This document shows, piece after piece, positions 30,584 through 39,872 of a stretch of 64,000 nucleotides of DNA. The position numbers and the translations under genes were made by a program. The DNA comes from Bacteroidota bacterium. Its GTDB lineage: Bacteria; Bacteroidota; Bacteroidia; 2-12-FULL-35-15. The stretch covers positions 62,001-126,000 of the forward strand of contig CANFRC010000002.1 of NCBI GenBank assembly GCA_947449315.1, read 5' to 3'. Below the pieces are notes generated by a model, which was given only the letters and a program-made list of their open reading frames with translations, did not search any database and was not told where the DNA came from. Each line of letters opens with the position of its first letter. Position 1 is the stretch's first letter.

Positions 30584-31627
30584 TTACTTTCGATTGGGGT
30601 CAACAAATCGCTTGTCATTCAGAAATTCTTTGTCAGTCAATGTTAGAAGGAAAGCGATAATATCTTTTCTTTCTTTGTCGCTTAAGCTCCCAATTTTAGT
30701 TACGTCTTCATCTGTTGTTTTGTTATGACTTATTGTTGATGAGTAATGATTCAATACATCTTTTAATTTTCTGTATCTGCCATCGTGCATGTAAGGGAAA
30801 GTCATTTCTATATTCCGTAAACTAGGGACTTTGAATTTAAAATTGTCACCCTCTATTTTTGTTATTCTTCCCCTACCAATATCATTTAACGATGAGTCAG
30901 CCATGAGTCCATTGTTTCTATATGAATTGTCCGTAAACAAAGGTTCTTGATGGCAGCCCGAACATTTTGCTCTGAACAATTGAAGTCCGCTTTTTTCCTG
31001 TATACTAAAAGTGTCTTTCCCTGATAGGTATTTATCATAACGGGAATTTGCTGAGATCATAAGCCCTGTAAATTGTGCCAACGATTTTAATAGTCTTTCC
31101 GAATTAATGATTGTGTCTTTGTAAGCTTTTTTAAATAGAGCAACATATTCTTTTTTTTGTTTTAGTTTAAAAATAATATGTGCTAAACTTTCATTCATCT
31201 CAATTGGATTAGTGAGCGGGTTAATCGGTTGTACTTCCATATTGTTGACACCTCCATCTGCCATATACGTATCTTTCCAGATCATGTTTTGTATGGCAGG
31301 TACATTTCGTGTTCCTATCTTCCCATCTATCCCATGGCTCAATGTGTGGTCAATGTGAGCGAATGCTGCTACTCTTTGATGACAACTTTGACAGCTGGTA
31401 GAACTGTCTTTTGAAAGAATGGGGTCGTAAAATAATTTTCTGCCAAGTATAAAACCTTCTGGACTTATTTTATTGTTTTTAAAATCATAAATGGGTTTTG
31501 GAAATCCTTTGGGAATCTTTAATTCGATATCTTTTTTTGAAATGGAATGATCAGATGCGTTATTCGCAAAACTCAATAGAATAATGCAGGCAGAAAAAAT
31601 AATCAATACAATAAACTTGTTTTTCAT
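30584..31627 (-). CDS. dihaem cytochrome c peroxidase family protein (MauG/MbnH-like)
   Basis: This exported protein has an N-terminal hydrophobic leader (about 1-22) and two c-type haem sites, CQSCH at 79-83 and CSGCH at 222-226, the layout of the CcpA/MauG family. The mature domain has the typical GFILGRKLFYDPILS near 58, GTRNVPAIQNMIW near 105, and PSLRNIEMTFPYMHDGR near 265. Its gene overlaps the mbnP-type gene by 4 bp (ATGA). In methanotrophs the MbnH enzyme of this family oxidises a Trp of MbnP to kynurenine, making a copper site, so this is probably the modifying partner. A plain H2O2 peroxidase is the alternative. It is last in a nine-gene run. Confidence 0.88.
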   Translation of the reverse strand: MKNKFIVLIIFSACIILLSFANNASDHSISKKDIELKIPKGFPKPIYDFKNNKISPEGFILGRKLFYDPILSKDSSTSCQSCHQRVAAFAHIDHTLSHGIDGKIGTRNVPAIQNMIWKDTYMADGGVNNMEVQPINPLTNPIEMNESLAHIIFKLKQKKEYVALFKKAYKDTIINSERLLKSLAQFTGLMISANSRYDKYLSGKDTFSIQEKSGLQLFRAKCSGCHQEPLFTDNSYRNNGLMADSSLNDIGRGRITKIEGDNFKFKVPSLRNIEMTFPYMHDGRYRKLKDVLNHYSSTISHNKTTDEDVTKIGSLSDKERKDIIAFLLTLTDKEFLNDKRFVDPNRK

Positions 31628-32364
31628 TTCTCTATAATAAACATATCCTTATAGTTATCCGCTATGATTGAGGCATTGCGGGTATCAGTCACCGAAGACA
31701 TTTTTGTGAAATCTATATTGGAAGGTGTTTTTAAAATTTCAGCAACATTGACTTTTATTTTCATTGCTTCGGTCTTGGTGTTTTCAATTAACAAAGGTTG
31801 CTCCAATTTTAATAAAACTGTACGTATGCTATTTGCGGGTGATTTGTACCCACCTATGTGATACTCAAAAATATTTCCAGGAGATTTTGAAAAAGAGGAT
31901 TTCCCTTCCAATTTTAAAAAGATATATCCTGTGTTCCAAGCCCAAAACATTCCGTTTGTTTCGTCTAGCGCACCTGATTGTGCACCACTGCAATTGTGAA
32001 GACTATCTACGCCAATCATATAAGAAATGCTTGTGTAGTTTCCTTTTGGAATGTGAGTCAGAACTATTTTTTTTGATTTCTCTTCTTCTTCATTTATTAG
32101 AAAATAGTCGTGTGAAATGTATTCAGTTCCATCAGCTTGCTTCAAATGGATATTGCTTATGTAATATTTGAAATTTGAAACAGTATACGCTTGTCCGAAA
32201 CTGTTTTTATAAGTTGTACTATCAAGATTTAATACTAAGCTATCAACATAATGAAAAAAAGTAATGCTCAGCATTCCTTTGGAGGAGTGCTGAGCATTAG
32301 AATGGGAAGGGGATGTTAAAAAATATAGTAGTACCCCGAAAAGTAAATAGCCCCGTTTTTTCAA
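31624..32364 (-). CDS. MbnP-family copper-binding protein
   Basis: This 246-residue exported protein has a signal peptide ending SHSNAQ (residue 25) and the MbnP-like domain: FHYVDSLVLNLDSTTYKNSFG near 37, AYTVSNFKYYISNIHL near 59, DYFLINEEE near 86, YMIGVD near 115, and the family hallmark NGMFWAWNTGYIFLKLEG (137-154). Its only two Trp, W141 and W143, lie in that hallmark. In characterised MbnP one Trp becomes kynurenine and takes part in copper binding. The C-terminal half has NYKDMF, also family-like. The gene starts 7 bp after the YHYH gene stop and overlaps the MauG/MbnH-like gene by 4 bp. A strong inverted repeat lies over its signal-peptide end (32263-32298). Confidence 0.85.
   Translation of the reverse strand: MKKRGYLLFGVLLYFLTSPSHSNAQHSSKGMLSITFFHYVDSLVLNLDSTTYKNSFGQAYTVSNFKYYISNIHLKQADGTEYISHDYFLINEEEEKSKKIVLTHIPKGNYTSISYMIGVDSLHNCSGAQSGALDETNGMFWAWNTGYIFLKLEGKSSFSKSPGNIFEYHIGGYKSPANSIRTVLLKLEQPLLIENTKTEAMKIKVNVAEILKTPSNIDFTKMSSVTDTRNASIIADNYKDMFIIEK
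32263..32298. repeat. near-perfect inverted repeat inside the mbnP-type coding region
   Basis: 16-base arms (32263-32278 and 32283-32298) surround a 4-base centre TTGG. The outer 11 bp are perfect, one position is mismatched (A-C in the mRNA, G-T on the other strand), and 4 bp follow. There is no T-run, so it is not a standard terminator. It covers codons 23-34, just at the signal-peptide end. Confidence 0.7.
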
Positions 32365-32371
32365 TTATAGA

Positions 32372-33742
32372 TTATTTGGTTACCACCACTTTTGATGTTT
32401 CTACTTTGTCGCCATCAGTTACTCTTACAAAATAAATTCCTGCATAAACAGTCTGAAGATCAAAGTAACACATTGTACTTCCCTGAAATAATGTTTGCGT
32501 TTGAATGATTCGGCCTAAGCCGTCAACTAATTCAACTTTTCTATTAGTTTTTCCACCTAAATGTGATTGAATGAAAAGCACATCATTTGCAGGATTTGGG
32601 TAGATGGATACTTTCAAATTTTCATTTGTAACATCAGCGATGCCTGTTGAAGATACATAAGTCGTAAGCCCTCCAGGAATGGAAGGAACAGTAGTGACAA
32701 CTTTTGTTCCGTAGAATGTTGGCCCAACCACATATGGATAATATGCATTCCAATTAGCATCTACTGTTGCAAAGTAACAATACGTTCCAAGGGGGTATTC
32801 AGGAGTTACACAAAAACGTCCATTATGAATATCTAAATAATCTGGAGTAGATGCAGAAGTAGGGTTATATTGATAATCCTCTCTATATTCACCGAGAGGA
32901 TGTGTAACACTAACAATAGGTCCAGCAGTTACAACTGTTCCATCATAATAAGTTGTTCTGGAAGTGATGCTTCTCAAGCTGAAACTTGATTTCATTCTTA
33001 CAATTCCACCTGTACCATCAACATTTTTATATCCGTAAGCTCCATAAATAGGAAAGCCATCGTAAGCAAAACCGATCAATGGCGAATGTACTGTTGAATC
33101 GATCACGTACAATCCGTCAGCTAAATACAAATTACAAACAGTTGATATTACATTTAGATCCAGATTAAAAGCACTTGGGTTTTGATGGTGATGATAATTT
33201 GTCATTGCAGGATGTCCTTTCGCACAATCAAAACCGACTCTTTCCGCTGGAACAGCATCTCTGTTCCAAATGCCATCACCCATTCCGCCAAGAGGGCCAC
33301 CCGCATCAGCTCCTGTTGAATTTTTGTAAGACACACCGTCTCTGTAATCAAATAAAGACACTCCATTTATAAAAACGCCAATGGTTCCTCCGGTAGTTGA
33401 TGCCAGCGTTCCTGTATTTTGAACAGGATTCAAGGGGAATTTATATTTGTTATTATTATTACCTCCTTGATTCGGATTTCCATCTAAATATGGACCTATT
33501 ACATAAGCAGGAATTCCACTGCAGCTTACATATACGTTGGTTGTGTTGTATGCAACAGATTGAACATTTGCTGGGTAGGTAGCATCTACAATTGGTGTAG
33601 AACTTCCGCTGATGTAATGTCTGCCGGTTATTCCAGTTGTGTTTTGTATCCAGCTCGAGATAACAGGATTTGTTTGTGCTTCAGCACCTGCGGATAGAAA
33701 CAACGCAATGCCCGTTGCTATTTGTAATACTTTATTTTTCAT
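32372..33742 (-). CDS. YHYH-domain protein with T9SS type A sorting signal
   Basis: This 456-residue surface protein has a signal peptide ending AEAQ (23), a YHYH domain and a C-terminal T9SS type A domain (about 375-456, with VSIYPNPANDVLFIQS and GIYFVRVTDG). The core is CAKGHPAMTNYHHHQNP at 173-189, where YHHH replaces the usual YHYH, followed by GFAYDGFPIYG at 224-234. The His cluster could bind metal; the family's reaction is not known. The gene lies between a thioredoxin-fold gene (34 bp) and the mbnP-type gene (7 bp), so it belongs to the copper/redox run. It would be exported by T9SS and either anchored or released. Confidence 0.85.
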   Translation of the reverse strand: MKNKVLQIATGIALFLSAGAEAQTNPVISSWIQNTTGITGRHYISGSSTPIVDATYPANVQSVAYNTTNVYVSCSGIPAYVIGPYLDGNPNQGGNNNNKYKFPLNPVQNTGTLASTTGGTIGVFINGVSLFDYRDGVSYKNSTGADAGGPLGGMGDGIWNRDAVPAERVGFDCAKGHPAMTNYHHHQNPSAFNLDLNVISTVCNLYLADGLYVIDSTVHSPLIGFAYDGFPIYGAYGYKNVDGTGGIVRMKSSFSLRSITSRTTYYDGTVVTAGPIVSVTHPLGEYREDYQYNPTSASTPDYLDIHNGRFCVTPEYPLGTYCYFATVDANWNAYYPYVVGPTFYGTKVVTTVPSIPGGLTTYVSSTGIADVTNENLKVSIYPNPANDVLFIQSHLGGKTNRKVELVDGLGRIIQTQTLFQGSTMCYFDLQTVYAGIYFVRVTDGDKVETSKVVVTK

Positions 33743-33776
33743 AGGGTTGATTTTAATGATTAAGAGACAATAGATT

Positions 33777-34403
33777 TTAATTTGTTTTATATTTTATCGA
33801 ACAACCAATGCTTTTGGTTTCATTTACTGTTATACTTTTTCCTAAAATTAATTCATTAATTGCATTTTCCAAATAATTGTTTTCAACTTTTAGTGGCTCT
33901 GCACCATTATCATCAATAGCACCTGAATATTTTATTTGCCATTGTTTATTTGACTTTAATAAAATAAATGCGTGGGGCGTTTTATTTGCCCCAAGGGATT
34001 TTGCTACCTCCTGTTTTGAATCTTTTAGATAAGGAAAATTGAATTTCTTTGCTCTTGCAAATGTTTTCATGTGTTCCGTATTCTCCTCTGGAAAGTCGAT
34101 AGCGTCAGTTGAATTAATAGCAATTAATGGAAATCCTTTTGAAGTATATTTTTCATTTAATTGATTCATACGGTCAACATAAAGTTTAGCAAATGGACAT
34201 CTGTTGCATGTAAATATAACAATGACGCCTTTCGCTTTTTTAAAATCATTTAAGGAAATAATTTTTCCATTGGTGTCACTTAATGAAAAGCTATTCACTA
34301 ATGAATTTATTTTCACTACTGGCGTGAATTCAGTTTTGAAACTGGCTGCAAATAATGCTAGTATAACAATACGAGCTATCTTTATTTTAAACGTAATATT
34401 CAT
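33777..34403 (-). CDS. exported thioredoxin-fold redoxin (AhpC/TSA-like)
   Basis: This 208-residue protein has an N-terminal hydrophobic segment (about 8-22) serving as a signal or anchor, then a redoxin fold beginning NSFSLSDTNGKIISLND near 37. The redox motif is IFTCNRCPFAK (C66, C69), with cis-Pro region NKTPHAFIL near 145. The CxxCP arrangement with downstream INSTDAIDFPEEN matches the peroxiredoxin-like thioredoxin family PRX_like1, not SCO (no CxxxCP). Its start codon shares one base with the stop of the multicopper oxidase gene, so it is almost certainly co-translated with it. It may keep Cys or copper centres of its neighbours reduced; this is inference. Confidence 0.82.
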   Translation of the reverse strand: MNITFKIKIARIVILALFAASFKTEFTPVVKINSLVNSFSLSDTNGKIISLNDFKKAKGVIVIFTCNRCPFAKLYVDRMNQLNEKYTSKGFPLIAINSTDAIDFPEENTEHMKTFARAKKFNFPYLKDSKQEVAKSLGANKTPHAFILLKSNKQWQIKYSGAIDDNGAEPLKVENNYLENAINELILGKSITVNETKSIGCSIKYKTN

Positions 34404-36112
34404 TATTCCTTAAAATAAGATTTAACATATGATTGACCTTTGTTATCGGTTAATCTTAAAAAGTACATTCCTGTTGCTAAGGGAGAAACGTTTATTTCTG
34501 TTTTTCCGTTGCTAATAATTTCTTCCATAACTGATTGTCCATGCGTAGTTATTACTTCTGCTTTTATTATAGGAGTATTGTCAGTTAATTTGAAATTTAA
34601 TATTCCTGTTGTAGGGTTTGGGAAAATCATCAAATTTTTATTTCGCTCAATATCCATTATTCCGGAAACCGCATTTCCAACAACAAATTGACCCATCATT
34701 CCTTCGTCCTCGTGCAACGCAATGTGGCAGTGATACATAAATGGGTGAAGCGCATCAGCATAATCACTGAATTTAGCTATGAATTTAACTGTTTCACCAG
34801 CTTTAACAAGAACAACATCTTTCCATCCTTGCTCATAGGTTGGTGGTGTTGCACCATTTCGGGAAAGGATATAAAATTCAACATCATGTATATGAAAAGG
34901 GTGTGAAAATCCAGATGTGCTCGTTATTTGCCAGATCTCTGTATTGTCTAAAGGTACTGTGTATTCAATATGATTAATATCAAATAATTTATGATTAATA
35001 ATAAATGCGTTTGGCCCTAAAATTCCTGAAACGCCTGCGCTGTCGGAAATTGTTAATGCTCTTGTTAGTGACGCAGATGCTGCTAATGGAAAGGTATTAG
35101 TGGTTAGAGTAGATGGTATAGTCGTAATCGCTCCGCTAGTGGGTGTTCCAATATTTAATTTTAAAATATTGTAATTTGTATGGCCTAAATAGCTTGCAAA
35201 TGGTCCGCCACCAAACACATCTCCTCCAGGTATGTTTCCAGGCAAAGAGGCATTATAGGCCTTTAAAAAAACAGATGTTCCATTTTGACCTGTGCAATTG
35301 ACTAATATTTCAACCCGTTCTCCAGCAGAAATTAAAAATCGTGGTGTTGTTCCTGAAATTAAAATGGGGGCATTTACTAATCCGCCATCAGTTGTTATAA
35401 CATAAAAAGACCTGTTGTCGCTGAAACCTAAATTATACGAAGTTTCTATTGCTGCATCTAAGATCCTGAATCTGACTACCTGTGCCGGAATGTTAAATTG
35501 TGCTCTTAATGTTCCATTTACCATAATGGAATCTCCGTATGGTACCTCAACAAATTGATGTGAAGTGTTAAAATCACGATCTGTAATTGCTAATGGGATA
35601 TCATCAACTCCATATGTTCTTGGCAAAGCAAGTGCGCTTTCAATTGAATCTCTCACAATAATAAATCCTCCTAAACCTTCGGTTATTTGTTTTTGAGACA
35701 TCATATCTAAATGTGGATGATACCAATATGTCGCAGCGTTATTCATCACTTGCCATGTTGGGTTCCAGGTTGTGTTTGGCGGAATTGTTTGATGTGGGCC
35801 ACCGTCCATTATTGCAGGAAGATGCATTCCATGCCAGTGCACCGTTAGCGTATCTGCAAGTTTGTTGGTAACATTCATATGCACAACATCCCATTTATTA
35901 AATATTAAGGTTGGTCCCCAGATGTTCTTATTGAAAGATGCTGTTATTGTTTGAGTACCTGTATTAATGATCTGCTTGAAAGTATCTAAGGCTGTTAAAT
36001 TAAAGGTCGTCCCAGCTAACGTATCCGGTATCCAAAGCGTATTGTAAGCTTGGGCATTTATTTTAAATGTTGAGATAATAATAAACCCGAGAATGATAAT
36101 TGATTTTTTCAT
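34403..36112 (-). CDS. multicopper oxidase with T9SS type A sorting signal
   Basis: This 569-residue laccase-like enzyme would oxidise a substrate (metal ion, phenol or bilirubin-type) while reducing oxygen to water. Signal peptide 1-20 (INAQ). Cupredoxin domain 1 has HWHGMHLP (92-99) and YHPHLD (131-136). Domain 3 has HPFHIHDVEF near 405 and HCHIALHEDEGMM (461-473), giving all trinuclear ligands, the type 1 Cys, and Met as axial ligand. A T9SS type A domain occupies about 490-569 (MIFPNPTTG, ATGMYFLRLTDNKG). The middle domain resembles CueO/SpoA-like oxidases. Surface or extracellular location differs from the periplasmic CueO. Overlaps the redoxin gene by one base. Confidence 0.93.
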   Translation of the reverse strand: MKKSIIILGFIIISTFKINAQAYNTLWIPDTLAGTTFNLTALDTFKQIINTGTQTITASFNKNIWGPTLIFNKWDVVHMNVTNKLADTLTVHWHGMHLPAIMDGGPHQTIPPNTTWNPTWQVMNNAATYWYHPHLDMMSQKQITEGLGGFIIVRDSIESALALPRTYGVDDIPLAITDRDFNTSHQFVEVPYGDSIMVNGTLRAQFNIPAQVVRFRILDAAIETSYNLGFSDNRSFYVITTDGGLVNAPILISGTTPRFLISAGERVEILVNCTGQNGTSVFLKAYNASLPGNIPGGDVFGGGPFASYLGHTNYNILKLNIGTPTSGAITTIPSTLTTNTFPLAASASLTRALTISDSAGVSGILGPNAFIINHKLFDINHIEYTVPLDNTEIWQITSTSGFSHPFHIHDVEFYILSRNGATPPTYEQGWKDVVLVKAGETVKFIAKFSDYADALHPFMYHCHIALHEDEGMMGQFVVGNAVSGIMDIERNKNLMIFPNPTTGILNFKLTDNTPIIKAEVITTHGQSVMEEIISNGKTEINVSPLATGMYFLRLTDNKGQSYVKSYFKE

Positions 36113-36170
36113 TTTTTTATTTTTATTTTATATTATTTAGACGATGCTCAAATTATAAACTTGTGTTTTG

Positions 36171-38429
36171 TTAATGCTGAACAATAATTTTTTTAACACT
36201 GCTATTATCGATCTTTATGAAGTACATGCCATTTTCATAATTCGTGAGGTTAACCGTTAATGAATTTGTTTTTCCTTCGAAAGAATCTATTAGTTGCGAC
36301 ATCGCATTGAAAATTTCTATTTTTTTAAACTCCGAACTTGAATTAATCTGTATTGCTGTGTTTGCTGGATTAGGGTACACGGTGTTAGACACGGCAACAT
36401 CATTTTCTTCAATTCCTGTTAAACAATTAAATGACATGTAGGTAGGGTAGTGTGTAGTAAAAGCACCTGTTCCATTTGCACAGCGCGCATAGGAAACATC
36501 GGCTGTTTGTGCTCCGAAAGTGACACTGTCAACAATATTGCCACTTGCATAAGAGAGCATCAGTTGTTCGCCCATTGCTGATAATTTAAAATTAGCATGG
36601 AGTCCCGATTGCGAGGTGTCGTTGTCTGCCCAAACAATTAGATAATCATTTGGAGCTACGGTTGTATTGTCCGGAAATTTCCATTTTAATGGGGTTGCAT
36701 ATGAGTCTGATAAATAAGCATTGTTCAAACTGATGAAACTAGAAGTGTTGTTATATAGTTCGATCCAGTCGTCAAATTCTCCGTTTTGATCTGAAACAGA
36801 AGCAGTATTTGTTGCTAAGAGTTCGTTAATAGCAAGTTGCCCTGCGCTTATCATAGAGATGGTAGCGAACAAAGTGTAGTATTCGTATTCCGCGCGTTCA
36901 GGAGAAAACATTCCTGCGTTATTATTCTCAGCGTAAATATAATAATGCATATAAGAAGCGTTTAGTGGTACTTTCACTCCGTAAACATTGTCGCCAGCAG
37001 CGCCATCATTATGCAGACCATCATCATACATGAGTATTCTTTTGAATGCATTCTCAATTGCATATCGGTAACCTAGATACACACCATTTGTATTTGTATT
37101 GATCACATTCGCAGTGATTGTTACTGTATCGTTTAAGGCAGGTGTAGCTGTAGAAGGCGCAATGGAAGAAATAGTAGGATGTGTATAAGTAAAATCGGTT
37201 TGAGCTGTTAACCATGTATTTCTTGCTCCCATCAGATTTGTTAATCCTGGTGCGTTGGTCATTCCGGATGAAACATCGGTTGTTAGATTATTGGTGAACT
37301 GAGCTAATGTGAAAAACTTATTTACATCAGCTGTTACAGAAGGAGTGATAAGCGTTTGCAGATTCTGTGCTGTTGTGAAATAGGATCCGCTTGCAAAATT
37401 TTCACTTAAAATTGTTCTCATGTGTGCGACATACATTTTCTTGTACATCGGTATTGCTAATAATTTTTGAATCAATGGCCAGCTCGCATCTCCGGAATGC
37501 AACAAATGAGTCATCTGTTGTTTTGAAGTTGTTGAAGGAAGACTAATTGTTCCCGTCATACTAAATGTTCCGAATGATTCATTGAAATCCCAAAGCACAG
37601 GATTAAAACGTTTATTATTATCTCTGTATAAATAATAATTTTGTGAGAAGGCCCCTATATAACTATCCAGATTTACTAAGGTGTTATCAAAAGCGATCAT
37701 CCATAATGCACGATCTACATCCAAAATCTTTTCAATGTTTGACGTATAATTTTTTAATGTATCAGTTAAATGTATCAGATCTTCCCATCCGGAATTTGAC
37801 TTTAACTCATAAGCTGTATAATACAATGTGCTGTCTGTTCCAAGGCTTACCAGATTAGGGAAAGAGGTTGTTCCCGGACCAGCACCTGCAGGAGGATTGC
37901 ATTTGAAGAACGCATTTTCGTTTGAATAAAAATGTGTGTTTAAAAATGTATTAGAAATCGATTCAGAACTGGAATATAATCCAATCAAAGTTCCATTTAC
38001 GGTTACATTTGCGAAATTGGATTGAGGGGCATGCATGTATTGTCTGAGGATCTGATACGAAAGTACTTCTCTTACAAACGAGGGGTCTTTTGCAACATTA
38101 CTTAATTTAATATCGGTGTATCCTTGATAATTTTGATTCTTATAAGCATCTAAAGTAATGTGAAAAGGGTTTTTTACTTGTGCAGCACTATAGGTGCTGT
38201 TTCCTTTGTAACGCACTCCAACACTGTCAAATTGAATCCCATTTATTTTTACCCATTGCGCCATTAGATTGGTCTCGAATCCTGCTGTAGCAGTATCCAT
38301 TAAATAATCCCAGTTTGTCTCAGCAAAATTAATTTCGATTGATTGTATGGTGTTCATGTCGTAGAACGATTGTGATTTTCCAACGAATGAATTGATTACA
38401 GTAAGTAAAATAAATAGTGCTTTTTTCAT
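36171..38429 (-). CDS. CotH kinase family protein with lamin-tail domain and T9SS type A signal
   Basis: This 752-residue surface protein has a signal peptide (ending GKSQ, 20). The CotH kinase domain (about 28-410) shows RYKGNSTY (73-80), FDNTLVNLDSY (247-257), NYYLYRDNN, and WDFNESFG (280-287), the active-site pattern of this atypical secreted protein kinase family. An Ig-like segment is near 420-540, a lamin-tail domain at about 560-680 (LAINELLATNTASVSDQNGE), and a T9SS type A domain at the end (TVYPNPANTAIQINSS, NGMYFIKIDNSS). CotH phosphorylates spore-coat proteins in Bacillus; the target here is unknown, and operon partners are possible ones. Gap to the MCO gene 58 bp. Confidence 0.9.
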   Translation of the reverse strand: MKKALFILLTVINSFVGKSQSFYDMNTIQSIEINFAETNWDYLMDTATAGFETNLMAQWVKINGIQFDSVGVRYKGNSTYSAAQVKNPFHITLDAYKNQNYQGYTDIKLSNVAKDPSFVREVLSYQILRQYMHAPQSNFANVTVNGTLIGLYSSSESISNTFLNTHFYSNENAFFKCNPPAGAGPGTTSFPNLVSLGTDSTLYYTAYELKSNSGWEDLIHLTDTLKNYTSNIEKILDVDRALWMIAFDNTLVNLDSYIGAFSQNYYLYRDNNKRFNPVLWDFNESFGTFSMTGTISLPSTTSKQQMTHLLHSGDASWPLIQKLLAIPMYKKMYVAHMRTILSENFASGSYFTTAQNLQTLITPSVTADVNKFFTLAQFTNNLTTDVSSGMTNAPGLTNLMGARNTWLTAQTDFTYTHPTISSIAPSTATPALNDTVTITANVINTNTNGVYLGYRYAIENAFKRILMYDDGLHNDGAAGDNVYGVKVPLNASYMHYYIYAENNNAGMFSPERAEYEYYTLFATISMISAGQLAINELLATNTASVSDQNGEFDDWIELYNNTSSFISLNNAYLSDSYATPLKWKFPDNTTVAPNDYLIVWADNDTSQSGLHANFKLSAMGEQLMLSYASGNIVDSVTFGAQTADVSYARCANGTGAFTTHYPTYMSFNCLTGIEENDVAVSNTVYPNPANTAIQINSSSEFKKIEIFNAMSQLIDSFEGKTNSLTVNLTNYENGMYFIKIDNSSVKKIIVQH

Positions 38430-38442
38430 GGTATACTTTTTT

Positions 38443-38465
38443 ATATAAAAATTTGATTTTTATAT
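38443..38465. repeat. AT-rich inverted repeat between the sensor-like gene and the CotH gene
   Basis: ATATAAAAAT and ATTTTTATAT form a 10-bp stem with a 3-base loop in the 44-bp spacer. AT-only stems are common by chance in this DNA, so a role as an mRNA processing or control site is only possible. Confidence 0.3.
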
Positions 38466-38473
38466 GCTACACA

Positions 38474-38956
38474 TTATCTTGGTAGCGGACCTTTCGGACC
38501 AAACAGCTGGGCTAATTCATCAGCTAATTTATAAAAATCGTCCAACTGGTCACTTTTACAAATGCTTTTTATCTTTTGAAAGTGATCGAAATTTAAATTG
38601 TCAACTGCTTTTTGATTATCTGCAATTTGTTGGATAAGTGCATCTACTTTCGTTTTATCAATTGCTTCGTTTTTTAGCAACGAATACAATTGATTATGCA
38701 ATTCGCGGGAAGCATCATGCAATTCATTGGTTTTATTTTTATGCTCTTCAATGACCAATTCATATTGTTTTTCCTGTCCAGCATCAAAATGCAATCGGTC
38801 GATGATCAGTTCTTTTGGACCTCCCCCCTGCTGAGGCAGAGGCATATCACCATGAGGTGGACGAGGTGGTTTGTGCATAATAAAAACGCCTAATGCTCCT
38901 AAATTTATCAAGAGCAATCCGATCACAGCTATTGTTAGTAGTTTAGTTCTGTTCAT
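38474..38956 (-). CDS. membrane-anchored Spy/CnrX-like periplasmic metal sensor
   Basis: This 160-residue protein has an N-terminal membrane span (about 7-27) without a lipobox, then a Pro/His linker HKPPRPPHGDMPLP and a helical hairpin domain (about 48-150) typical of the heavy-metal-resistance/Spy class (LHFDAGQEKQYELVIEEHK, then long heptad-like helices). Seven His (28, 35, 56, 72, 80, 87, 125) and C133 are possible metal ligands. It follows the putative anti-sigma gene by 2 bp. That order and topology resemble CnrX, the periplasmic sensor of the CnrYXH nickel/cobalt system. A Spy-like chaperone is the alternative. The metal is unknown; copper is suggested by the neighbours. Confidence 0.75.
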   Translation of the reverse strand: MNRTKLLTIAVIGLLLINLGALGVFIMHKPPRPPHGDMPLPQQGGGPKELIIDRLHFDAGQEKQYELVIEEHKNKTNELHDASRELHNQLYSLLKNEAIDKTKVDALIQQIADNQKAVDNLNFDHFQKIKSICKSDQLDDFYKLADELAQLFGPKGPLPR

Positions 38957-38958
38957 GA

Positions 38959-39261
38959 TTATTGATTGTAGTTGAGCGTATTTTCATTGAATAATTGATA
39001 ACTGCTTTCTAATGTTAGTACTTCTGTTTTCGTGTTTTTTGATGACGAAGTACTTGTCTTGATTACTTTAAAATTCAGCAATAGTAATAAAGCAAAAGAT
39101 GCGGCAGCCAGCCAAACTAATTTCATGGGCGCATATTCTGAATTTCCTGAGCTTATTTTTTGTAAGATCTTAGTGTATAAAAAAGGATTCACCTCGGCCG
39201 ACTTTACATCATCCAGGCTGTTAATTACCTCATTTATCCATTTTTCCTTGTTCATCTCCAT
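38959..39261 (-). CDS. putative single-TM anti-sigma factor
   Basis: This 100-residue protein has a cytoplasmic N-terminal part of about 45 residues (KEKWINEVINSLDDVKSAEVNP), one membrane span at about 47-64 (MKLVWLAAASFALLLLLNF) and a short Ser/Thr-rich outer tail. No anti-sigma signature such as a zinc motif is visible. The assignment rests on size, topology and position directly after an ECF sigma gene (gap 30 bp) and before a CnrX-like sensor gene (gap 2 bp), like CnrY. An alternative start, the second Met at residue 3, is equally possible. Confidence 0.6.
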   Translation of the reverse strand: MEMNKEKWINEVINSLDDVKSAEVNPFLYTKILQKISSGNSEYAPMKLVWLAAASFALLLLLNFKVIKTSTSSSKNTKTEVLTLESSYQLFNENTLNYNQ

Positions 39262-39291
39262 TTTTGACGATATTAATTAGTAAAACTTGCG

Positions 39292-39831
39292 CTAACTTTT
39301 AAAAAAGTTCGATAATTCTTTCTGTAAATTCTGTTTTGCCCTGAACAATAGCGATTCCACCGAAGATATACTTGTTTGCATCACTTCCGAGATCTCCAAA
39401 TAACTTAATCCTTCTATTTTGGATAAGATAAAAGCAGTTTTTTGATTTTCAGGAAGATTGTTGATGGCTTTAAATAAAATAGCGGATTTTTCCTTCTGCT
39501 CTAAAATTACGCCCGGATGAAAAAAGTTGGGCGCATCGTGCTGTAGATCTCCAGAAGCATTGAATAAACTGATCATAAAGGCAAATCGCTTTTTCCTATT
39601 TTTACTTTTGATAAAATCTAGGGATTTGTTGATTGAAATTCGGTAGATCCATGTACTCAAAGACGATTTGCCTTCAAATTTATCAAGTGAGCGGTGGACC
39701 TCCACAAATACATCCTGAGTGGTTTCTTCGGCATCCTCTTGGTTTTGTAGATAACTGATGACCGTATTAAAAACCTTGTTTTTATACGACTCGTAAATTT
39801 CCTGAAAAGATGGGATGTTGTCCAAAGGCAT
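39292..39831 (-). CDS. ECF-type RNA polymerase sigma factor
   Basis: This 179-residue sigma-70 family protein has region 2 (about 12-80: VISYLQNQEDAEETTQDVFV and SSLSTWIYRISINKSLDFIK) and region 4 (about 120-172: LPENQKTAFILSKIEGLSYL and SSVESLLFRAKQNLQKEL), with no region 1 or 3. It is the first gene of the nine-gene minus-strand run and, by position, probably directs transcription of that run after release from the following one-TM protein. A TATATTTG box (39837-39844) ends 5 bp before the ATG, giving a near-leaderless transcript. A zinc-responsive anti-sigma partner is not seen. Confidence 0.92.
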   Translation of the reverse strand: MPLDNIPSFQEIYESYKNKVFNTVISYLQNQEDAEETTQDVFVEVHRSLDKFEGKSSLSTWIYRISINKSLDFIKSKNRKKRFAFMISLFNASGDLQHDAPNFFHPGVILEQKEKSAILFKAINNLPENQKTAFILSKIEGLSYLEISEVMQTSISSVESLLFRAKQNLQKELSNFFKS

Positions 39832-39836
39832 TAAAA

Positions 39837-39872
39837 CAAATATATGAATCTTTATGTATGGTAATTTGCAAA
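39837..39872 (-). promoter_or_regulatory. candidate promoter of the sigma-copper operon
   Basis: On the minus strand TTTG (39869-39872) and TATATTTG (39837-39844) match the Bacteroidota elements, but the spacer of 24 bp is longer than the usual 19-21. The -7 box lies 5 bp before the sigma factor ATG. A separate ECF-type promoter could also exist and cannot be identified from one copy. Confidence 0.4.

Follow-up and report, generated by a model that had tools for sequence, protein, structure and literature searches.

A putative CnrYXH-like sigma factor switch linked to predicted copper-handling surface proteins in a Bacteroidota genome

In Cupriavidus metallidurans, nickel or cobalt frees the extracytoplasmic function (ECF) sigma factor CnrH from CnrYX, and CnrH then transcribes cnrYXH and efflux genes (PMC4803752). 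Only ca. 6 % of the ECF sigma factors in Bacteroidetes are encoded close to a class I anti-sigma gene, and the existence of further classes of anti-sigma is suspected (PMC7406223). In the copper proteins CorA/MopE a kynurenine produced from tryptophan by oxidation binds Cu(I), and an adjacent dihaem protein is suspected of producing it (PMC3912023; PMC3621798). The locus described here lies in a stretch of 64,000 nucleotides, hereafter called the window, from the genome of a Bacteroidota bacterium (assembly GCA_947449315.1, contig CANFRC010000002.1, positions 62,001 to 126,000; 2.61 Mb in 27 contigs, genome G000). It is interpreted here, as a fairly probable reading, as a Cnr-type envelope switch driving a set of copper-handling surface proteins.

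The open reading frame map of the window contains nine minus-strand genes between 30584 and 39831, spaced by -4 to +58 bp, as stated in the original prediction, which had been made from the sequence alone. In 5' to 3' order they encode an ECF sigma factor (SIG), a 100-aa protein with one transmembrane helix (TM1), a Metal_resist/CnrX-like protein (CPX), a CotH kinase-family protein, a multicopper oxidase (MCO), a thioredoxin-fold protein (TRX), a YHYH protein, an MbnP-family protein and a MauG-like protein (Table 1). The families assigned with Pfam and NCBIfam agreed with those proposed earlier, and the three proposed type A signals of the type IX secretion system (T9SS) were recovered above the cut-off (PF18962, TIGR04183) in CotH, MCO and YHYH. 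A T9SS translocon is encoded in the genome, with a full-length SprA (2618 bits) and nine PorP/SprF homologues.

The PDB matches of SIG include CnrH (4cxf, E 1.5e-8). The AlphaFold2 model of CPX, with a predicted local distance difference test score (pLDDT) of 81.8, consists of one membrane helix and a four-helix hairpin, and in a Foldseek search against the PDB ranks 1-14 were all CnrX or NccX (probability 1.0), at E-values of 0.03-0.09, which is the usual level for small helical proteins. With VIA-align, CnrX was matched at Z 11.7 (2.5 Å over 103 residues) and Spy, CpxP and ZraP at Z 8-9; unrelated helical bundles can score up to Z 13, and the argument for CPX therefore rests on the ranking of CnrX/NccX above all other matches and on the gene context. 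The modelled fold is thus CnrX-like rather than Spy-like, so that of the proposed Spy/CnrX-like identity the CnrX half is retained. Behind its membrane helix CPX has a His/Met-rich linker, and H72 and H125 are near-invariant in the alignment. In the TM1 family alignment, a conserved stretch on the cytoplasmic side (NPFLYxKI) is followed by a single membrane helix and a short tail; translation of TM1 probably starts at the second ATG (39255). From the sequences and the model, the most plausible reading of SIG, TM1 and CPX is a CnrH/CnrY/CnrX-like module, in which the sensing at the inner membrane that had been proposed would be carried out by the CnrX-fold sensor and its one-helix partner.

Side-by-side comparison of the intergenic gaps gave a common element, GCARGT-N15-CGTCWAA. 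Searched exactly in 36 genomes of the same genus, it had 21 matches, of which 19 fell within this locus and the other two at remote sites of G000, and the reversed motif used as a control had one. All ten genomes with the close form of the module had exact matches, and the 26 others had none (Fisher p 4e-9, an upper limit on the strength of the link, since the genomes are related and no phylogenetic correction was applied). When C[AG]TC was allowed, 35 of 36 matches in 2.5 Mb of fetched loci lay directly upstream of module genes or of the two extra G000 targets (TM1 17, namely the window and 16 other loci, YHYH nine, CotH six, and SIG, a VTC operon and a lipoprotein gene one each), with no match in the reversed control; the link between motif and locus is near-exclusive. 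In distant modules the -35 element is GAAGGA and the -10 element, CGTC, is unchanged, and 14 of 15 matches of this form were upstream of TM1 or YHYH (control, three). Because it tracks the divergence of SIG itself, this shift of the -35 element between lineages supports the motif independently. Of the loci with a motif directly upstream of YHYH, nine have the GCARGT form and eight the GAAGGA form; in the window there was no motif directly upstream of YHYH. GCARGT-N15-CGTCWAA is probably the SIG promoter. A scan of the genome with two mismatches allowed returned 73 matches, vs 124 in the reversed control, and was swamped by chance to the point that weaker members of the regulon could not be named.

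The -10 element lies 21-26 nt before the ATG of CotH and YHYH and 1-13 nt before that of TM1, the latter suggesting a leaderless anti-sigma mRNA. The mRNAs of SIG and TM1 are both probably leaderless, with a core element ca. 5-8 nt before the ATG (39829-39844; 39255-39290). The conservation of TATATTTG just upstream of the SIG ATG suggests low-level, housekeeping expression of SIG, and SIG probably activates transcription of its inhibitor as well as of the cargo. The conserved ECF-type promoter upstream of the anti-sigma candidate and of cargo genes is consistent with the self-regulation originally predicted, SIG apparently transcribing the genes of its own anti-sigma candidate and sensor. The single sigma-led operon of nine genes has to be given up: the SIG-type motifs inside the run, together with SIG's own TATATTTG, indicate a multi-promoter locus and regulon with at least one remote target, an operon containing VTC and DUF4956 genes.

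For comparison, loci were collected from the 36 same-genus genomes and at class level (about 60 MbnP loci and 20 TM1 loci), and their genes were labelled with profiles built from the window proteins. Six independent genus loci (L100, L101, L105, L107, L108 and L110) contain SIG-TM1-CPX-CotH-YHYH-MbnP-MauG, i.e. seven of the nine window families, without MCO and TRX, their CotH copies being 65-73 % identical and in the same position; L033 and L034, taken from another collection, duplicate L110 and L101, respectively. CotH is missing from genus loci L109 and L116, and the rearranged order SIG-TM1-CPX-MbnP-MauG-YHYH occurs in L102, L104 and a second G000 locus, L103, the short TM1 of which was missed by the profile. 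In other families the SIG-TM1-CPX triad is followed by YHYH-MbnP-MauG in L135, L145, L320 and L149 (the last with an arylsulfotransferase between), and L318 has SIG-TM1-CPX-YHYH-MCO-TRX-MbnP-MauG in one run, eight of the nine window families with only CotH missing. The order in L332 is SIG-TM1-CPX-MCO-TRX-arylsulfotransferase-YHYH. In L322, L329, L331 and L336 the triad is followed by a diverged YHYH gene and one for SCO1/SenC, and in L102, L104, L334 and L337 it directly precedes MbnP-MauG. The order SIG-TM1-CPX was constant in the genus and in other families, TM1 being invariably the middle gene, and the complete nine-gene set was found only in the window among the loci examined. Judged from gene order, the association is widespread and exceeds chance, since parts of it keep their order both within the genus and in other families; the adjacency first noticed in the window is thus not peculiar to this genome. 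On the same evidence YHYH is the most constant predicted output, and CotH an accessory in part of the genus.

Several of these loci have further features. L103:9092-13444 (contig 13 of G000) is a second, diverged SIG-TM1-CPX-MbnP-MauG-YHYH module of the same genome, with a GAAGGA/CGTC-type motif upstream of YHYH and GAAGGT-N15-CGTCTAA 8 nt upstream of SIG. The same contig has a YHYH - MORN protein - SCO1/SenC cluster without the triad (L065:7002-8993), a trio which also follows the triad in L322, with similar sets in L329, L331 and L336. In the sister genome G033 (L111:7294-10814), SIG, TM1, CPX, CotH and MCO have been lost from the corresponding site and a truncated TRX is kept before YHYH-MbnP-MauG, and the flanking genes of 311 and 620 aa correspond in size and place to the WD40 and HtpG genes of the window. 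Further T9SS cargo occurs in or near such loci (L066:2311-13421, L069:7740-14650 and L149:6435-8114), namely two metallophosphoesterases, arylsulfotransferases and an Lcl_C-domain protein, accompanied by a longer form of YHYH. In L105 and L107, repeat-like inserts of 100-200 bp lie in several gaps of the module (e.g. ...CGTCATTGCGAG...), with the promoter motif beside the genes intact.

Among the cargo, the MbnP and MauG-like genes adjoin with a 4-bp overlap, and their products score below the NCBIfam cut-offs TIGR04039 / TIGR04052 (199.8 vs 362.85 and 46.3 vs 140 bits). The best PDB match of the MauG-like family is 6e1c, titled 'Di-heme enzyme', which we take to be MbnH; Tyr295 of the window protein, the CXXCH motifs of which are C79QSCH and C222SGCH, aligns with the Tyr of 6e1c, where classical cytochrome c peroxidases (CcP) have Met. 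No PDB entry was matched by the MbnP profile. MCO has all four copper-ligand motifs (HWHG, YHPH, HPFHIH and HCHIALHEDEGM) and is below the CueO equivalog cut-off NF008205 (322 vs 525 bits), and TRX accompanies MCO in L318, L332 and L069. For YHYH, which has an invariant His cluster in the alignment, structure prediction was poor (pLDDT 62); its SCO1/SenC neighbours in the four triad loci mentioned above add, as judged from gene content, to the copper theme of the outputs. The proposed surface output via T9SS and the copper theme among the products are both supported.

Table 1 Features of the locus in the window (positions are those of the window)
Feature	Position	Strand	Evidence or remarks
TATATTTG, housekeeping sigma-ABfr type -7 element	39837..39844	-	5 nt upstream of SIG ATG; same place in L034, L100, L102, L105, L107, L109
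SIG, ECF sigma factor, 179 aa	39292..39831	-	Sigma70_r2 + r4_2 above cut-off
Probable SIG-dependent promoter GCAAGT-N15-CGTCAAA, upstream of TM1	39263..39290	-	Exact motif match
TM1, 100-aa protein with one transmembrane helix, candidate CnrY-type anti-sigma	38959..39261	-	Family alignment; no Pfam match
CPX, membrane-anchored periplasmic Metal_resist/CnrX-like predicted sensor, 160 aa	38474..38956	-	PF13801; AlphaFold2 model; fold matches
CotH kinase-family surface protein, Lamin-Tail domain (LTD), T9SS tail	36171..38429	-	PF08757 + LTD
Second SIG-type promoter, 24 nt upstream of MCO ATG	36137..36164	-	Motif match, 1 mismatch
MCO, CueO/laccase-like multicopper oxidase, T9SS tail	34403..36112	-	Pfam/NCBIfam; four copper-ligand motifs
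TRX, AhpC/TSA thioredoxin-fold protein, CNRC	33777..34403	-	Pfam
YHYH protein, T9SS tail	32372..33742	-	PF14240; invariant H177, Y183, H184, H186
MbnP-family protein	31624..32364	-	PF20243 4.5e-55; invariant WxW (W141, W143), H169
MauG/MbnH-like dihaem protein, two CXXCH, axial Tyr295	30584..31627	-	CCP_MauG PF03150 2.6e-48

The scan of the window for RNAs gave no Rfam family and no tRNA, and generic sigma-70 promoter and terminator scans of the window yielded no more than did shuffled sequences.

The VTC operon that carries one of the two remote exact motif sites in G000 consists of lipoprotein, MORN, VTC, DUF4956 and DUF2490 genes (L210:8547-11631, or L210:8332-11631 including the promoter; contig 3), and its promoter is identical in 27 of 28 bases to that of TM1. 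In genomes G005, G013 and G033, CotH is directly upstream of the same VTC/DUF4956/DUF2490 set; in G000, and in this genome only, the operon lacks CotH and has the SIG promoter. In Gram-positive Pel clusters the genes for CotH, polyphosphate polymerase and DUF4956 are contiguous (PMC7112168). The simplest reading of these arrangements, drawn from one genome, is that the window CotH and the VTC operon work together under SIG, and the part assigned to CotH is the least secure in the whole interpretation. A CotH and VTC/DUF4956 set tied to a metal switch would give a new lead on bacterial CotH proteins outside spores. The other remote exact site is 35 nt upstream of a gene for a 157-aa lipoprotein (L211:7456-7929, or L211:7394-7929 with the motif; contig 5).

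Under the proposed mechanism, TM1 would hold SIG at the membrane as long as there is no signal. Binding of a metal, most likely copper, by CPX in the periplasm would cause TM1 to release SIG, which would then transcribe from GCARGT-N15-CGTCWAA promoters both TM1-CPX, as feedback, and the cargo genes. This cargo would be YHYH and the MbnP/MbnH-like pair and, in G000, also MCO, TRX, CotH and the remote VTC/DUF4956 operon; Trp oxidation in MbnP by the dihaem enzyme would create a copper site. That copper is the signal is likely from the cargo (the MbnP/MbnH-like pair, MCO and, in other families, SCO1). The regulatory architecture appears well supported by the sequences compared.

Five observations weigh against this interpretation. 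The metal ligands of CnrX are presumably H42, H46, E63, H119 and M123; H119 corresponds to the near-invariant H125 of CPX by a near-gapless alignment offset, which is not a residue-level structure alignment, and by the same offset H42 and H46 correspond to P47 and I51, so that the metal site is probably a different one. The Trp of the WDGG motif, which presumably aligns with the Trp between the haems of MauG and CcP, is kept in 27 of 29 other aligned MauG-like proteins (His in L090 and L147) and is replaced by Ala at codon 123 in the window and in the sister genome G033 (L111:7294-8337). With this Trp lost the MauG-like protein may have an altered chemistry, or it may be decaying. Four triad loci, L323, L327, L330 and L333, have no recognised copper cargo. 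The TM1 profile search found no CnrY chain, and this lack of sequence kinship is expected for the class; class II anti-sigmas share almost no sequence similarity with other classes (PMC7406223). Finally, CorA/CorB of methanotrophs are repressed by copper, the opposite direction to Cnr (PMC3912023).

That last point bears on the alternative which survives best, although it is unlikely: the same switch could act in copper shortage, CPX reporting an empty site and the MbnP/MbnH-like pair, YHYH and MCO capturing and conditioning scarce copper at the surface. CorA/CorB and MopE, which do so, are copper-repressed and bind Cu(I) via kynurenine (PMC3912023), and SCO1/SenC by YHYH in other triad loci and in L065 suggests copper delivery. 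CnrYXH, however, is switched on by metal and not by its absence (PMC4803752). SCO1 and MbnP argue for supply, whereas MCO argues for excess, which a CueO-like oxidase fits better; on balance we infer, with a modest preference, induction by copper availability or excess. Slightly less credible is a non-copper envelope cue, such as misfolded proteins, redox stress or nickel, cobalt, iron or manganese, with CPX acting like Spy/CpxP and the copper proteins serving as oxidants in another process, e.g. metal oxidation or surface cross-linking. PF13801 does include Spy/ZraP-like proteins, and phosphoesterases or an arylsulfotransferase replace the copper genes in some triad loci, but the fold of CPX matches CnrX/NccX above Spy, CpxP and ZraP, and MbnP/MbnH, the oxidase and SCO1 are recurrent outputs. 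It is very improbable that the genes are chance neighbours, the triad regulating only itself and CotH/VTC and YHYH-MbnP-MauG forming an independent transcript. Although YHYH-MbnP-MauG occurs without the triad in L063, L064, L114, L115, L118, L163, L169 and L178, and the window YHYH is without its own motif, this would leave unexplained both the loci with a motif directly upstream of YHYH and the four in which the triad directly precedes MbnP-MauG. A role of SIG as a general regulator of the T9SS machinery with this locus as merely one target, as suggested by the three T9SS-tailed products and by the ECF sigma factor SigP, which is reported to regulate T9SS genes in Porphyromonas (PMC4800418), was rejected as scarcely credible, since the T9SS genes have no exact motif, the exact sites in G000 being only at TM1, the VTC operon and one lipoprotein gene and none at SprA or PorP loci.

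Taken together, the original interpretation is partly supported, and the reading as a Cnr-type switch for copper-handling surface proteins is retained. If it is true, the common YHYH proteins and MbnP/MbnH-like pairs of Bacteroidota would gain a regulator and a promoter as well as a likely signal, and a CnrY-like candidate partner beside a CnrX-fold sensor would be a concrete candidate for the non-class-I anti-sigmas of Bacteroidetes. A wider version is put forward tentatively, as something we would not yet bet on: a Bacteroidia-wide Cnr-type switch with a class II-like anti-sigma would command a surface copper system in which YHYH, an unrecognised family of T9SS-secreted copper proteins, is the common output, to which lineages add MbnP/MbnH, oxidase-thioredoxin, SCO1 or CotH, and which in G000 has also captured a CotH-VTC polyphosphate system.

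Searches of the open-licence literature turned up no publication that links YHYH and MbnP with an ECF sigma factor, and the system is apparently undescribed. Control of a multicopper oxidase by an ECF sigma factor is reported for the CorE type (PMC3107203); CorE senses copper itself via a Cys-rich C-terminal extension (PMC10141476), whereas SIG has no such extension and has membrane partners. SigAb-AabA-AabB of Acinetobacter resembles the module in having a copper-responsive ECF sigma factor, a CnrY-like anti-sigma of 107 aa and a third regulator in one operon, and differs in its direct regulon of three targets, including relA, and in an operon without exported copper proteins (PMC12153292). 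As in the Gram-positive Pel clusters (PMC7112168), CotH goes with VTC and DUF4956 in the genus, contiguously; the G000 VTC operon differs in having a SIG promoter and no CotH of its own, the CotH gene sitting in the SIG locus. MbnP/MbnH and CorA/CorB (MopE/SACCP) share with the window pair an MbnP-family gene beside a dihaem MauG-like gene, and WxW and the axial Tyr are kept; here the pair is coupled to an ECF module, YHYH and T9SS, scores below the TIGR04039/TIGR04052 cut-offs and lacks the WDGG Trp. The closest relative in logic is CnrYXH (CnrH sigma, CnrY class II anti-sigma, CnrX sensor), with three genes for proteins of similar sizes, a CnrX fold in CPX and the promoter of the sigma factor before the anti-sigma and sensor genes. 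The gene order is Y-X-H there and sigma, one-helix protein, sensor here, and by the alignment offset His ligands of CnrX fall at non-matching positions in CPX. Neither the nine-gene run nor the DNA downstream of the motif sites contains efflux genes, while the output of CnrYXH is resistance-nodulation-division (RND) efflux. The parts are thus known, and the novelty relative to CnrYXH is the different output, surface copper proteins in place of an efflux pump.

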